Part shown: piece by piece, positions 12,554 through 23,172 of the stretch
How the letters are laid out: every line of letters begins with the position of its first letter
How positions within the stretch are numbered: the stretch's first letter is position 1
Notes under the pieces: generated by a model
What the model was told of the DNA's origin: nothing
Database searches by the model: none
Seen by the model: the letters and a program-made list of their open reading frames with translations, nothing else
Made by a program: the position numbers and the translations under genes
DNA from: Candidatus Berkelbacteria bacterium CG_4_10_14_0_2_um_filter_35_9_33_12
Lineage (GTDB): Bacteria; Patescibacteriota; UBA1384; GWA2-35-9
Assembly: GCA_002793435.1 (NCBI GenBank)
Contig: PFQF01000015.1
Coordinates: forward strand, 1-34,216
Reading direction: 5' to 3'
Length of the DNA: 34,216 nucleotides

Positions 12554-13528
12554 ATGTTAGACAGTGCCAATATTCTAGTACAAGCTGGTAAGGGTGGGGA
12601 TGGTTTCGCTTCTTTTAGACGAGAAAAATATGTTCCATTTGGAGGTCCTTGGGGAGGTGACGGAGGTGAAGGGGGAAGTATATTTTTTGTAGCAACAAAA
12701 GAACTTAACAATTTAGTCAATTTTCATAGAAAAAAAATTTATCAAGCCCAAAATGGTGAAACAGGCAAAACAAAAAATATGAAAGGAAAAAATGGTGAAG
12801 ATTTAATTATTCCTGTCCCGGTTGGTACGCTAGTCTATGAAAAAAAAGGTAATAAACAAATTCTAACTCATGATTTTATTAATGAAAAAGATATAAAACT
12901 AATTGTTCAAGGTGGAAAAGGTGGATTAGGAAATACTCATTTTAAATCATCAACCAATCAAACACCCAAAGAATTTACTCTTGGCACTCAAGGTGATGTA
13001 AGAAATTTAATTTTGGATTTAAAATTAATTGCTGATATTGGAATTATTGGGTTTCCCAATAGTGGTAAATCAACTTTACTGAAAATACTGACTAAAGCAA
13101 ATCCGAAGATTGCTAATTATCCTTTTACAACACTCGATCCAAATCTTGGCACATTAAATATTAAAAATAAAACTTTTGTATTAGCCGACATTCCAGGTTT
13201 AATAGAAGGAGCTTCCAAGGGTAAAGGTCTGGGTGATAAATTCTTAAAACATATTCAAAGAACTAAAATATTAATTCATTTGGTTGATGTTAATAATGTT
13301 GATTTAGAATTAGCTTATAAAACTATTACGAGAGAATTAATTGATTTTGATAAAAGTTTAAAAAAGAAAAAAGAAATAATTGTTATTTCAAAATATGATA
13401 CTGAAGAAATTTCACTATCGCCGGAATCACTTAAATTTATACAAAAATACGATTGTTTATTAATTAGTTCATTAACACATAAAAATATTGACGAATTGAT
13501 TAAAAAGATATATAATTTGATAACTTAG
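12554..13528 (+). CDS. obg: Obg-family GTPase
   Basis: This is a ribosome-associated GTPase needed for late 50S assembly and growth control. The 324-aa product has the glycine-rich Obg fold (1-155; FRREKYVPFGGPWGGDGG at 21-38), then the G domain: GFPNSGKS (166-173), the switch segment NYPFTTLDPN (188-197), DIPG (212-215), SKYD (279-282) in place of the usual NKxD, and SSL (305-307). The variable C-terminal OCT domain of many Obg proteins is absent, as in short Obg forms. The start ATG 12554 gives a normal Obg N-terminus; no Shine-Dalgarno is seen. It lies 20 nt after the peptidase gene and ends before a perfect palindrome. Confidence 0.96.
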   Translation: MLDSANILVQAGKGGDGFASFRREKYVPFGGPWGGDGGEGGSIFFVATKELNNLVNFHRKKIYQAQNGETGKTKNMKGKNGEDLIIPVPVGTLVYEKKGNKQILTHDFINEKDIKLIVQGGKGGLGNTHFKSSTNQTPKEFTLGTQGDVRNLILDLKLIADIGIIGFPNSGKSTLLKILTKANPKIANYPFTTLDPNLGTLNIKNKTFVLADIPGLIEGASKGKGLGDKFLKHIQRTKILIHLVDVNNVDLELAYKTITRELIDFDKSLKKKKEIIVISKYDTEEISLSPESLKFIQKYDCLLISSLTHKNIDELIKKIYNLIT

Positions 13529-13533
13529 TATTA

Positions 13534-13565
13534 GTCAAATCAAATAATTAATTATTTGATTTGAC
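13534..13565. repeat. Perfect 32-bp palindrome overlapping the tuf -35 box
   Basis: GTCAAATCAAATAATT (13534-13549) is followed without a spacer by its exact reverse complement (13550-13565). The right end covers five of the six bases of the TTGACA -35 of tuf (13561-13566). As RNA it could fold after obg, but no U-run follows. A dyad operator for a dimeric repressor or activator is the more natural reading; this is inference. Confidence 0.85.
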
Positions 13566-13588
13566 ATCCTGAGAACAGTATGTATAAT
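13561..13588 (+). promoter_or_regulatory. Promoter of tuf and the ribosomal protein cluster
   Basis: A TTGACA -35 (13561-13566), a 16-nt spacer and a TATAAT -10 (13583-13588) match consensus at both boxes. The start is predicted near 13595. The leader is about 70 nt and ends in GGAGGT (13654-13659), 4 nt before the tuf ATG, unlike the leaderless layout at infA and the glycan operon. Confidence 0.8.
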
Positions 13589-14875: not shown

Positions 14876-15202
14876 ATGACTGACAAGACAAAGTTTAAAA
14901 CTAAGATTGGTATTAGACTAAAGGCATACGATAGTAGTATTCTTGATAAAAGTGTTAAAAAAATTATTGATATTTCAACCCGCTCTGGAGCAGTCGTTGT
15001 TGGTCCAGTACCATTACCAACTGAAATTAAAAAAACATCCGTGCTTCGCTCAACCCATGTTCACAAATCATCTTTTGAACAGTTTGAGATGAGGATTCAT
15101 AAAAGATTAGTTGATGTTTTTGATCCGACCCCTAAAACTATTGACGACTTAATGTCTTTAGATTTTCCAGCTGGTGTGGATATTGAAATAAAAACAACTT
15201 AA
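14876..15202 (+). CDS. rpsJ: 30S ribosomal protein S10 (uS10)
   Basis: This 30S head protein is also the NusE component of antitermination complexes. At 108 aa it is complete, with the RLKAYD N-terminal strand, the GPVPLPT loop and the [10 protein letters not shown] segment. There are a few extra residues at both ends compared with the 103-aa E. coli protein. No Shine-Dalgarno is visible before ATG 14876. It follows tuf by 27 nt and is followed by the longest gap of the tuf-to-map cluster (76 nt), which holds a large hairpin before rplC. Confidence 0.97.
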
Positions 15203-15221
15203 AAAGTATAAATAATAATGT

Positions 15222-15271
15222 ACTTTTGAGATAATCGTCTCGCTTGACGGGATAGATTCTCAAAAGTTTTT
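15222..15271 (+). promoter_or_regulatory. rplC leader hairpin with U-run (candidate attenuator or processing site)
   Basis: A 19-bp hairpin can be drawn by hand in three stacked segments. ACTTTTGAG (15222-15230) pairs with CTCAAAAGT (15259-15267). After a 2-nt bulge, AATC (15233-15236) pairs with GATT (15255-15258). After a 1-nt bulge, GTCTCG (15237-15242) pairs with CGGGAT (15248-15253), two pairs being G-U. The loop is CTTGA. Five T residues follow (to 15271), then GGAG (15272-15275) and the rplC ATG at 15279. It has the form of an intrinsic terminator placed just before a ribosome-binding site. No free energy was calculated. Confidence 0.75.
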
Positions 15272-15278
15272 GGAGTAT

Positions 15279-15881
15279 ATGATTGGATTATTTGCTCAAA
15301 AAATTGGTATGACACAAATCTTCGATGAAAATGGCAGAGTTTTTGCTGTGACTATTTTGAAATTGCATGAAAATAGAGTAACTAAGATAAATTCTAAAAA
15401 TGATGAATTTCAAATTACTATTAGCGGTGGAATGAAAAAAAATATTTCAAAAGCTCAAAAAAGTCAACTTACAAAATTAAAAATCGATACTAGTTTATGT
15501 TGGTCAAAAGAGTATCATACCAAAAATAGTTACCAATTATCGGATGAATTAAAAGCCAATATATTTGAAAAAGATGAATTAGTAAAAATAATTGGGACAG
15601 GAAAGGGAAAGGGCTTCCAAGGAACAATCAAAAGACACGGTTTTTCACGAGGTCCAATGTCACACGGAAGCCATCACCATCGTAAACCAGGGTCAATTGG
15701 ATCGACTTATCCGCAAAGAGTAGTTAAGGGCAAAAAAATGGCTGGTCGAATGGGCAATAATCAAGTTACAGTAAAGAATGCCAAAATAATTGATGTAGAT
15801 TACGATAATAATATTCTGGTAATTAAAGGCTCGATACCTGGCTCAAATAAACATAAAATTATAATTTTTAAAAATGACTGA
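15279..15881 (+). CDS. rplC: 50S ribosomal protein L3 (uL3)
   Basis: L3 is an early-assembly 50S protein whose extension reaches the peptidyl transferase centre. The 200-aa product begins [15 protein letters not shown], typical of the family. It carries the conserved extension [13 protein letters not shown] followed by [14 protein letters not shown] chose ATG 15279, which gives this N-terminus, over an in-frame TTG at 15270 that falls in the U-run. A short GGAG lies 3 nt upstream, next to the leader hairpin. It overlaps rplD by 8 nt. Confidence 0.97.
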
Positions 15882-16524
15882 TATTAAAGTAATCAAAAAA
15901 TCTGGTGTCTCGTCAATTAGATTAACTGAAGTTATCACGAAACATAAATATGTTTCTAAGATTATTTCTGATAATTTGAAAAGAATTATTAATAATTCAT
16001 ACAGTCATTCGGCTCATACAAAAACTCGTGGAGAAGTTAGGGGCGGTGGTAGAAAACCATGGAAACAAAAAGGGACTGGTCGGGCAAGAGCTGGTAGTCT
16101 TAGATCACCAATATTTAAAGGTGGTGGAACGACTTTTGGACCACGATTTAGTAAACGCTTATCAAAAACCAATGCTAAATCAGTAAAAAACTCACTCTTA
16201 GCGGTACTTAAAAAAAAGAAGAATAAAATTTATATTTTAGATCTTTTACTTGATAAACCATCAACTAAATTGGTAAACCAAGTTTTATCAGAAAACATAA
16301 AAAATAAAAATATTTTAATTATTGGTTCTAAGGATAAAAAAATCAAACAATCAGTCAGAAATTTAACTTTAGTAAAATTTGTTGATATTTTATCCCTTAA
16401 TGTGTACAATGTTTCTACTTCAGATGTCATTGTCTTTACTCAGACTGCTTATAACAAATATTTTAATATTGACGAGGAAAAGAAAATAGAAACAAAAGCC
16501 AAAAAGAAAGTTGCAAAAAAATGA
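15874..16524 (+). CDS. rplD: 50S ribosomal protein L4 (uL4)
   Basis: L4 lines the upper peptide exit tunnel and in E. coli represses its own operon. The 216-aa product has the tunnel loop with [20 protein letters not shown] followed by ARAGS, then the alpha/beta core. The C-terminal tail is a short lysine-rich extension. It starts inside the end of rplC (8-nt overlap) and ends as ATGA with rplW, so translation is coupled on both sides. If operon autoregulation exists here, L4 and the hairpin before rplC are the obvious pair; this is inference. Confidence 0.97.
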
Positions 16525-22182: not shown

Positions 22183-22500
22183 ATGAAATCAAAAAATAAT
22201 AAAAATATTGTTAAACTGTTAAATAAGAATAATTATCCAATTTTTAAGGTTTATCGTAGTCTGACAAATATTTATGCACAAGTGATTAATAGTCAAGGAG
22301 AAGTTTTAGCCAGTTCAAATAGTTTGAAATTTAAAAAAGTGGATAAGAATGAACAAGCCATTCAGGTTGGATTTGATATTGCAAAAAAATGTCTAGTTAA
22401 AAAAATTAAACAAGTTGTTTTTGACCGTGGACAATTTCGTTATATTGGAAGAATAAAAATTTTAGCTGATTCAGCTAGAAGTAAAGGATTAAAAATATGA
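22183..22500 (+). CDS. rplR: 50S ribosomal protein L18 (uL18)
   Basis: L18 binds 5S rRNA with L5. The 105-aa product has VYRSLTNIYAQVINSQGEVLAS in the first half and KCLVKKIKQVVFDRGQFRY, the family signature, near the end. The basic N-terminus is shorter than in many homologues. It overlaps rpsE by ATGA. Confidence 0.95.
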   Translation: MKSKNNKNIVKLLNKNNYPIFKVYRSLTNIYAQVINSQGEVLASSNSLKFKKVDKNEQAIQVGFDIAKKCLVKKIKQVVFDRGQFRYIGRIKILADSARSKGLKI

Positions 22501-22946
22501 GATATCAAAAACCTGAAAAAAAAGAATTTGAAGAAAAGGTCATCGAGATTAGTCGTATTTCTAGAACTGTTAAGGGTGGTCGTCGGATTAGATTTAGGGC
22601 TTTAGTTGTGATTGGAAATAGAAATGGTAAAGCTGGTTATGGTGTCGCTAAAAGTGCTGAAGTAGTGAATGCAATTACAAAAGCTGTTAATCAAGCCAAA
22701 AAAAAGATGATGACTATTCAACTTAACAAAGATCGATCAATCCAAAGACAAATTAAAGTTAAATATGCTAGTGCACAAGTAATAATTAAACCAGCTACTA
22801 TTGGAACTTCGCTTGTAGCTGGTGGACCGGTGCGAAGTGTGGTTGAAGCCTTTGGTATCAAAAATTTAATATCAAAAAATATTGGAAGTGCTAATAAAGT
22901 TAATATTGTTAAAGCTGTTTTTTTAGCTTTAAAAAAGTTAAATTAA
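22497..22946 (+). CDS. rpsE: 30S ribosomal protein S5 (uS5)
   Basis: S5 is a fidelity protein at the mRNA entry channel. The 149-aa product has [20 protein letters not shown] and [13 protein letters not shown], the double-stranded RNA-binding-like domain, and [16 protein letters not shown] in the C-terminal part. It is 4 nt before rplO. rpmD (L30), which normally lies between them, is absent. Confidence 0.97.
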
Positions 22947-22950
22947 AGAT

Positions 22951-23172
22951 ATGACAGATTTTAAACTAACAGATTTTTTTGAAAAAAAAAGAAAAAATAA
23001 AAAAAGACTTGGTCGTGGACGTGCTTCGGGCAAAGGAAAAACTTCTGGTAAAGGGACAAAGGGTCAAAAATCAAGAACTGGTAACAGTATTCCTTTTGGA
23101 TTCGAGGGCGGACAAACGCCATTCTATAAAAGATTGCCTAAAAAAAAGAGCCGTCCGAATAAAAAAAGATAA
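22951..23172 (+). CDS. rplO: 50S ribosomal protein L15 (uL15), truncated form
   Basis: L15 is an assembly protein whose extended N-terminal arm threads through 23S rRNA and whose C-terminal globular domain normally sits at the surface. Here only 73 aa are encoded, against about 145 in E. coli. The arm is intact: [20 protein letters not shown], then [15 protein letters not shown], which in full-length L15 is followed by the globular domain. Here it ends in a basic [10 protein letters not shown] tail and a TAA. secY begins 5 nt later, so there is no room for a frameshifted remainder. It is either a reduced but functional L15 or a recently shortened one. Confidence 0.9.

Follow-up and report, generated by a model that had tools for sequence, protein, structure and literature searches.

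A covarying hairpin upstream of rplC in Patescibacteria, probably a ribosomal-protein leader with a strand-swapped counterpart

RESULTS

The hairpin in the rpsJ-rplC gap

The DNA analyzed here, referred to as the window, is a stretch of 34,216 nucleotides (nt) spanning contig PFQF01000015.1 of Candidatus Berkelbacteria bacterium CG_4_10_14_0_2_um_filter_35_9_33_12, in which the ribosomal protein (r-protein) genes rpsJ (uS10) and rplC (uL3) are separated by a gap containing the hairpin that is the subject of this study (Table 1). The gap occupies positions 15203-15278 and is 76 nt long, from the end of rpsJ at 15202 to the first rplC ATG at 15279. As the original prediction had pointed out, it stands amid gaps that are short or negative according to the window gene list, with rplC and rplD overlapping by 8 nt, rplD and rplW by 4 nt, and only very short gaps after them.

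Minimum free energy (MFE) folding of the hairpin gave 19 pairs in blocks of 10 + 3 + 6, interrupted by two bulges, one of 2 nt (U15232 A15233) and one of 1 nt (A15254), and 1 of 200 shuffled sequences was equally stable. The stem and its two small bulges were thus as predicted from the letters, although the proposed division into 9 + 4 + 6 pairs placed one A-U pair differently. The window sequence, which was itself one seed of both covariance models R1 and R2, matched R1 with 42.8 bits (E 7.3e-7, own genome) and R2 with 34.9 bits (E 1.1e-4). G15255, which the model leaves unpaired, can pair with C15236 when the window sequence is folded on its own. A spacer of 11 nt separates the hairpin from the rplC ATG, and since U15267 lies within the stem, the hairpin is followed by only four unpaired U residues rather than the five T residues originally counted. 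The predicted rplC ribosome-binding site has a counterpart in GGAG at 15272-15275, but the assignment is weak, because this motif is only 3 nt 5' of the ATG and reads AAAG in the other genome of the genus.

In longer folds of 15190-15310, a predicted hairpin between the rplC start region (AGUUUUUGGAG) and early rplC codons (CUCAAAAAAUU) competes with the lower leader stem; it is not conserved in the second genome of the genus. An alternative fold of the window sequestering the Shine-Dalgarno sequence was dropped, as it was not retained in the other genome of the genus.

Conservation, covariation, and the core

The genus has one other genome, the order four in all, and the class 55, of which 51 contained rplC homologues; the upstream regions of 49 rplC loci of the class were compared. 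By eye, most loci shared one layout: GGAUAAC or a variant follows the 5' strand of the lower stem, G(U)UCC precedes its 3' strand, and between the two is an upper stem whose length differs among loci. The hairpin was present in 32 of the 49 loci, representing 17 families. In an alignment of 18 sequences, 16 of 18 pairs were changed on both sides, with a covariation of 0.532 (shuffles 0.245, slid at most 0.194); 31 sequences gave 18 of 18 pairs and 0.479 (shuffles 0.225, slid at most 0.256), and 30 model-fitted copies gave 17 of 17 pairs and 0.635 (shuffles 0.256, slid at most 0.200), all figures being read with the fact that the alignment seeds were picked for showing the pattern. Covariation of the stem in relatives, on which the original prediction had hung, was thus clearly found, with compensatory changes in every stem segment, and these changes support selection on the element as an RNA. 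We are highly confident that the hairpin is a conserved cis-acting RNA of rplC.

The 30 copies shared a core, GGA-[NA]-xy paired with y'x'-UCC, with a 2-nt bulge containing an invariant A. On the 5' strand, the core reads G (25 copies) or A, G (25) or A, and A (29), followed by the bulged N and A (30/30), x, and y. The 3' strand reads y', x', U (29), C (26), and C (23), and a purine precedes y' in 28 of the 30 copies. The x-x' pair was A-U in 20 copies, U-A in six, and C-G in three, while y-y' was C-G in 17 and U-A in seven. Paired length and upper stem varied widely, whereas the bulge and the core bases were fixed. Since x-x' and y-y' covary, whereas hardly any change is seen in the bulged A or in the A-U pair beneath it, the core looks like a site of protein recognition rather than part of a generic hairpin.

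Attachment of the element to rplC

In the whole genomes of the class, all 18 R1 matches better than E 0.01 were located before rplC, and all 20 R2 matches at E<=0.1 in the 55 genomes were directly upstream of it. The matches that were not seeds were G026 (R1, genomes), L086 and L103 (R1, rplC loci; L103 weak), and L108 (R2, E 0.033). Since most of the matches are seeds, these searches demonstrate specificity more than independent discovery. Two R1 matches outside the class, among 381 genomes of the phylum (L160 and L161), were judged false; neither is near rplC, and one is at an ordinary terminator-like hairpin.

In 12 loci where rpsJ is not adjacent or the gap is about 235 nt or more (L086, L088, L100, L103, L105, L106, L108, L109, L110, L113, L117, and L129), a promoter of the form TTGACN-17/18-TAnnnT, a sigma-70-like consensus match and hence a predicted start, was found 5' of the leader, with 2-87 nt between the -10 box and the leader. 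A hairpin located downstream of a promoter where rpsJ is absent or distant belongs to rplC and not to the end of rpsJ. Because rplD, in addition, followed rplC in all 24 leader loci that reach far enough, the element travels with rplC-rplD and not with rpsJ. In the window itself, two near-perfect sigma-70 promoters are found 5' of tuf on the forward strand (13488-13516 and 13561-13588, with 11 and 12 of 12 matches), which likely mark the start of a tuf-rpsJ-rplC transcript.

A strand-swapped form in other classes

In other classes of Patescibacteria, and among others in a Saccharibacteria MAG (L026), the region before rplC contained the arrangement stem-AAGUCC-loop-GGAAACU-stem, which is the same core with its strands in reverse order (GGA-[NA]-CU with AGUCC). 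In 14 sequences of this form, 10 of the 13 modelled pairs were changed on both sides (covariation 0.572 vs. 0.219), and 22 sequences gave 0.493 vs. 0.214. The bulged A was invariant (22/22), and an A preceded y' in 20 of the 22 copies. The swapped-form model R3 yielded 20 matches at E<=0.01 in the 381 genomes, 17 of which precede rplC-rplD; eight of these 17 were not seeds (G171, G209, G218, G223, G239, G262, G284, and G300). The other three (L279, L281, and L282) are at unrelated loci away from rplC and were rejected, being about the number expected by chance. R3 had no match in the window, and R2 found nothing convincing in the swapped-form loci. Consequently, the two forms cannot be aligned end to end and share only the core.

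A further pattern, CACAUUA..UAAUGUG-hairpin-GUGUUGU or CUAAUGUGUG..ACAACAC, was seen before rplC in L044 and L072 and more loosely in L107, L118, L122, and L124, the loci being two of Paceibacteria type and those of family f4 of the window's class. It is possibly a third type of leader.

Other features of the genomes

The protein uL15 is truncated to 73 amino acids in both genomes of the genus (window 22951-23172, forward strand; L165 4878-5096, reverse strand; 94.5% identical), with secY beginning 5-10 nt after the truncated gene, while relatives in the order have open frames of 143-146 residues. The C-terminal domain of uL15 therefore seems, from the gene sequences, to have been lost in the genus. 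The gene rpmD (uL30) is absent between rpsE and rplO (window 22497-23172), presumably in keeping with a Patescibacterium. The genome's own 23S gene (L162) measures 3484 nt, and many of the genes in the set of L162 and L194-L212 span 3.4-5.0 kb, lengths that suggest large insertions when set against the 2.9 kb of E. coli.

Table 1. Features of the rplC leader and adjoining genes in the window
Feature	Coordinates	Strand	Remarks
rpsJ (uS10)	14876..15202	+	Precedes the leader in the window; missing or far off in other leader genomes
rplC leader hairpin	15222..15267	+	Covariance model match 15219-15270; MFE -18.5 kcal/mol, z = -2.89
P1 5' arm (ACUUUUGAGA)	15222..15231	+	Pairs with 15258-15267; all P1 pairs changed on both sides, 30 copies
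Conserved 2-nt bulge N-A	15232..15233	+	A invariant: 30/30 copies, 22/22 strand-swapped copies
x, y (A15234, U15235) and P2 (upper stem) 5' arm	15234..15242	+	Pair variation across copies
P2 3' arm with y' A15256, x' U15257, and purine G15255 before y'	15248..15257	+	
P1 3' arm (UCUCAAAAGU)	15258..15267	+	Partner of 15222-15231; fold and covariation
Four U after stem	15268..15271	+	No conserved terminator tract; CUUUUAAAG in the other genome of the genus
rplC (uL3)	15279..15881	+	Lead gene of the proposed regulated unit
rplD (uL4)	15874..16524	+	Overlaps rplC by 8 nt; candidate ligand

DISCUSSION

A putative autogenous leader of the rplC operon

The hairpin is probably a ribosomal-protein leader (r-leader) of the unit rplC-rplD-rplW-rplB and following genes, through which a free r-protein, most likely L4 (uL4), would repress its own operon by blocking the initiation of rplC translation. 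Two features of r-leaders were found, a covarying RNA structure and a consistent location 5' of r-protein genes (20 of 20 R2 matches and 17 of 20 R3 matches). In the proposed mechanism, an r-protein in excess over rRNA would bind the bulged core GGA-[NA]-xy / y'x'-UCC, with L4 as the first choice and L3 (uL3) as the second. The bound hairpin, 11 nt before the rplC start, would be held within the 30S footprint, and initiation at rplC would be blocked. Since the following genes overlap or nearly touch, translational coupling could carry the repression downstream, while tuf-rpsJ would be spared. We infer protein binding, the identity of the ligand, and a block of initiation rather than termination of the transcript.

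That the ligand is an r-protein appears very probable, and L4 is the candidate that we favor by a modest degree, by analogy. The S10-operon leaders known so far bind L4, which is also the only protein of the operon established as a regulator elsewhere (PMC10931766). This precedent argues against the possible but rather unlikely alternative that the ligand is L3, encoded by the first gene, or one of the other operon proteins, such as L23, L2, or L22. The alternative draws on the fact that rplC is the first gene after the leader in every case; moreover, Eckert and Weinberg, who assign r-leader ligands by precedent, warn that such assignments are uncertain (PMC7247131).

Several observations weigh against an L4-binding leader acting at initiation. 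With filters off, R2 matched neither the E. coli S10 leader (L168) nor any S10 leader in the Firmicutes loci that were searched, so L4 is proposed purely by analogy. The spacing of leader and ATG is about 0 to 130 nt and in one copy 327 nt, so a single blocking geometry does not fit every copy. The hairpin is missing from 17 of the 49 class loci, some of which have terminator hairpins instead, and the fitted alignment, whose seeds were chosen for showing the motif, leans toward its own structure. Finally, no matching rRNA site was found in the 23S rRNA of E. coli, in the window's own 23S rRNA, or in those scanned from 16 relatives.

Scanning 23S rRNA for the module gave chance-like matches, 37 for E. 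coli and 46 for the window's own 23S. In the latter, the best site, near H46, was rejected as a mimicked site since it is not conserved in relatives. At E. coli 2307/2391 and 798/688, sites recurred that do not resemble real helices, and we take them to correspond to none; they were likewise rejected. The L4 region of 23S domain I (H19) reads CUGGAAAG and is loosely similar to the leader core, which is suggestive at most.

Attenuation and processing

The original prediction described the hairpin as terminator-shaped and proposed an attenuator that tunes rplC and the following genes apart from tuf-rpsJ. In such a model, the hairpin and its U-run would end part of the tuf-rpsJ transcripts before rplC, possibly conditionally, either through pairing of an upstream AAAAGUA with UACUUUU or through bound L4, like L4 with NusA in the E. 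coli S10 leader. The four to five U residues after the stem in the window are compatible with this, as are the 20 of 31 copies having at least five T in the eight positions after the stem, the competing 5' AU stem predicted in the longer fold, and the GC-rich, terminator-like hairpins directly before rplC in other Patescibacteria families. However, the window hairpin lacks the combination of a GC-rich stem and a U-tract that defines an intrinsic terminator: the base of its stem is A-U rich, its tract is short, and the site is absent from the list produced by the terminator scan. In most copies the tract is both short and interrupted, and it falls below five T in eight in 11 of 31, including both genomes of the genus (four each; CUUUUAAAG in the second). 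Moreover, a stricter terminator test was passed by only 1 of 32 leader loci, but by 4 of 17 loci of the class without a leader and by 7 of 40 loci in other classes, the expectation under single-base shuffling being at most 0.2 per set. A terminator also has no need of an invariant bulged A and a GGA/UCC core. Judged by its sequence, the hairpin is not mainly a terminator, and we regard attenuation as an improbable explanation. Of the original proposal, the position suited to separate control of rplC stands, whereas attenuation as the shared function does not, given the tracts poor in U in 11 of 31 copies.

Terminator hairpins in leaderless loci and in other classes imply that the phylum has rplC attenuators, though in different lineages. 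GC-rich hairpins with T-tracts were seen directly before rplC in the leaderless loci L101, L127, and L128 and, in other classes, in L234, L245, L252, and L255; by eye, L101, L127, and L130 had an upstream stretch able to pair as an antiterminator. The hairpins of the leaderless families suggest, on the basis of their sequences, a separate attenuator-type control of the same operon.

A site for RNase III or another processing enzyme, or a stabilizer separating the tuf-rpsJ mRNA from the rplC mRNA, is very improbable: the intercistronic position in this genome and the 19 pairs in total would suit it, but promoter-proximal copies have no upstream cistron to be cut from, which leaves the originally suggested RNase III site unsupported as a shared function, and the variable paired length with fixed bulge and core better fits sequence-specific recognition than duplex cutting.

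Two topologies of one module

Returning to the putative r-leader, we infer that the hairpin and its swapped form may bind one common ligand. It is an evenly balanced proposition that much of Patescibacteria regulates the rplC operon through one module for protein recognition (GGA-[NA]-xy and y'x'-UCC, with a purine preceding y'), which occurs in two circularly permuted topologies with swapped strands and replaces, at the level of the phylum, the rpsJ leader of other bacteria. If this is true, the core in its two strand orders before rplC would be a clear example from nature of permuted RNAs recognized by one RNA-binding surface. Patescibacteria are mostly uncultured, and the balancing of r-proteins and rRNA in them is little understood. 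The hairpin would represent, for the largest r-protein operon, a control element that is defined, open to testing, and precise in its core. With control shifted from rpsJ to rplC, S10 and EF-Tu could escape it, and the core offers a route to annotating the regulation of the rplC operon across many genomes.

Comparison with known systems

The original prediction knew of no described element at this position, and our searches agreed with it. In Rfam, no family matched the leader at the gathering threshold, with only chance matches below the threshold at relaxed cut-offs. None of the 20 leaders in PMC7247131 fits the element, and no ribosomal leader of Patescibacteria and no rplC leader was found in the open-licence literature. 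A simple GGATAA..TTCC hairpin pattern, tried in Firmicutes, cyanobacterial, and other loci, returned only chance hairpins.

The S10 leader that binds L4 in E. coli and other Gammaproteobacteria resembles the element in serving the same operon as a leader RNA, under the control of one of the operon's own proteins according to r-leader logic, but differs in sequence and fold, is not matched by R2, and is located upstream of rpsJ. The new element, in contrast, is downstream of rpsJ or occurs where rpsJ is absent. The Firmicutes S10 leader shares the operon and the proposed ligand, L4; it too is upstream of rpsJ, with a conserved GUGGAAGGUUGC..GAUACACCCGG, and was without an R2 match at the loci searched. 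The attenuators of other Patescibacteria families, with their intrinsic terminators, share position and gene, but consist of a GC-rich hairpin and T-tract without the GGA-[NA]/UCC core. The L4 r-leader predicted in Archaeoglobi is alike, by its description, in being directly 5' of rplC-rplD-rplW-rplB, although it is archaeal and was rated borderline by its authors (PMC7247131). Set beside these systems, the element is probably a previously undescribed r-leader with an unusual permuted pair of forms.
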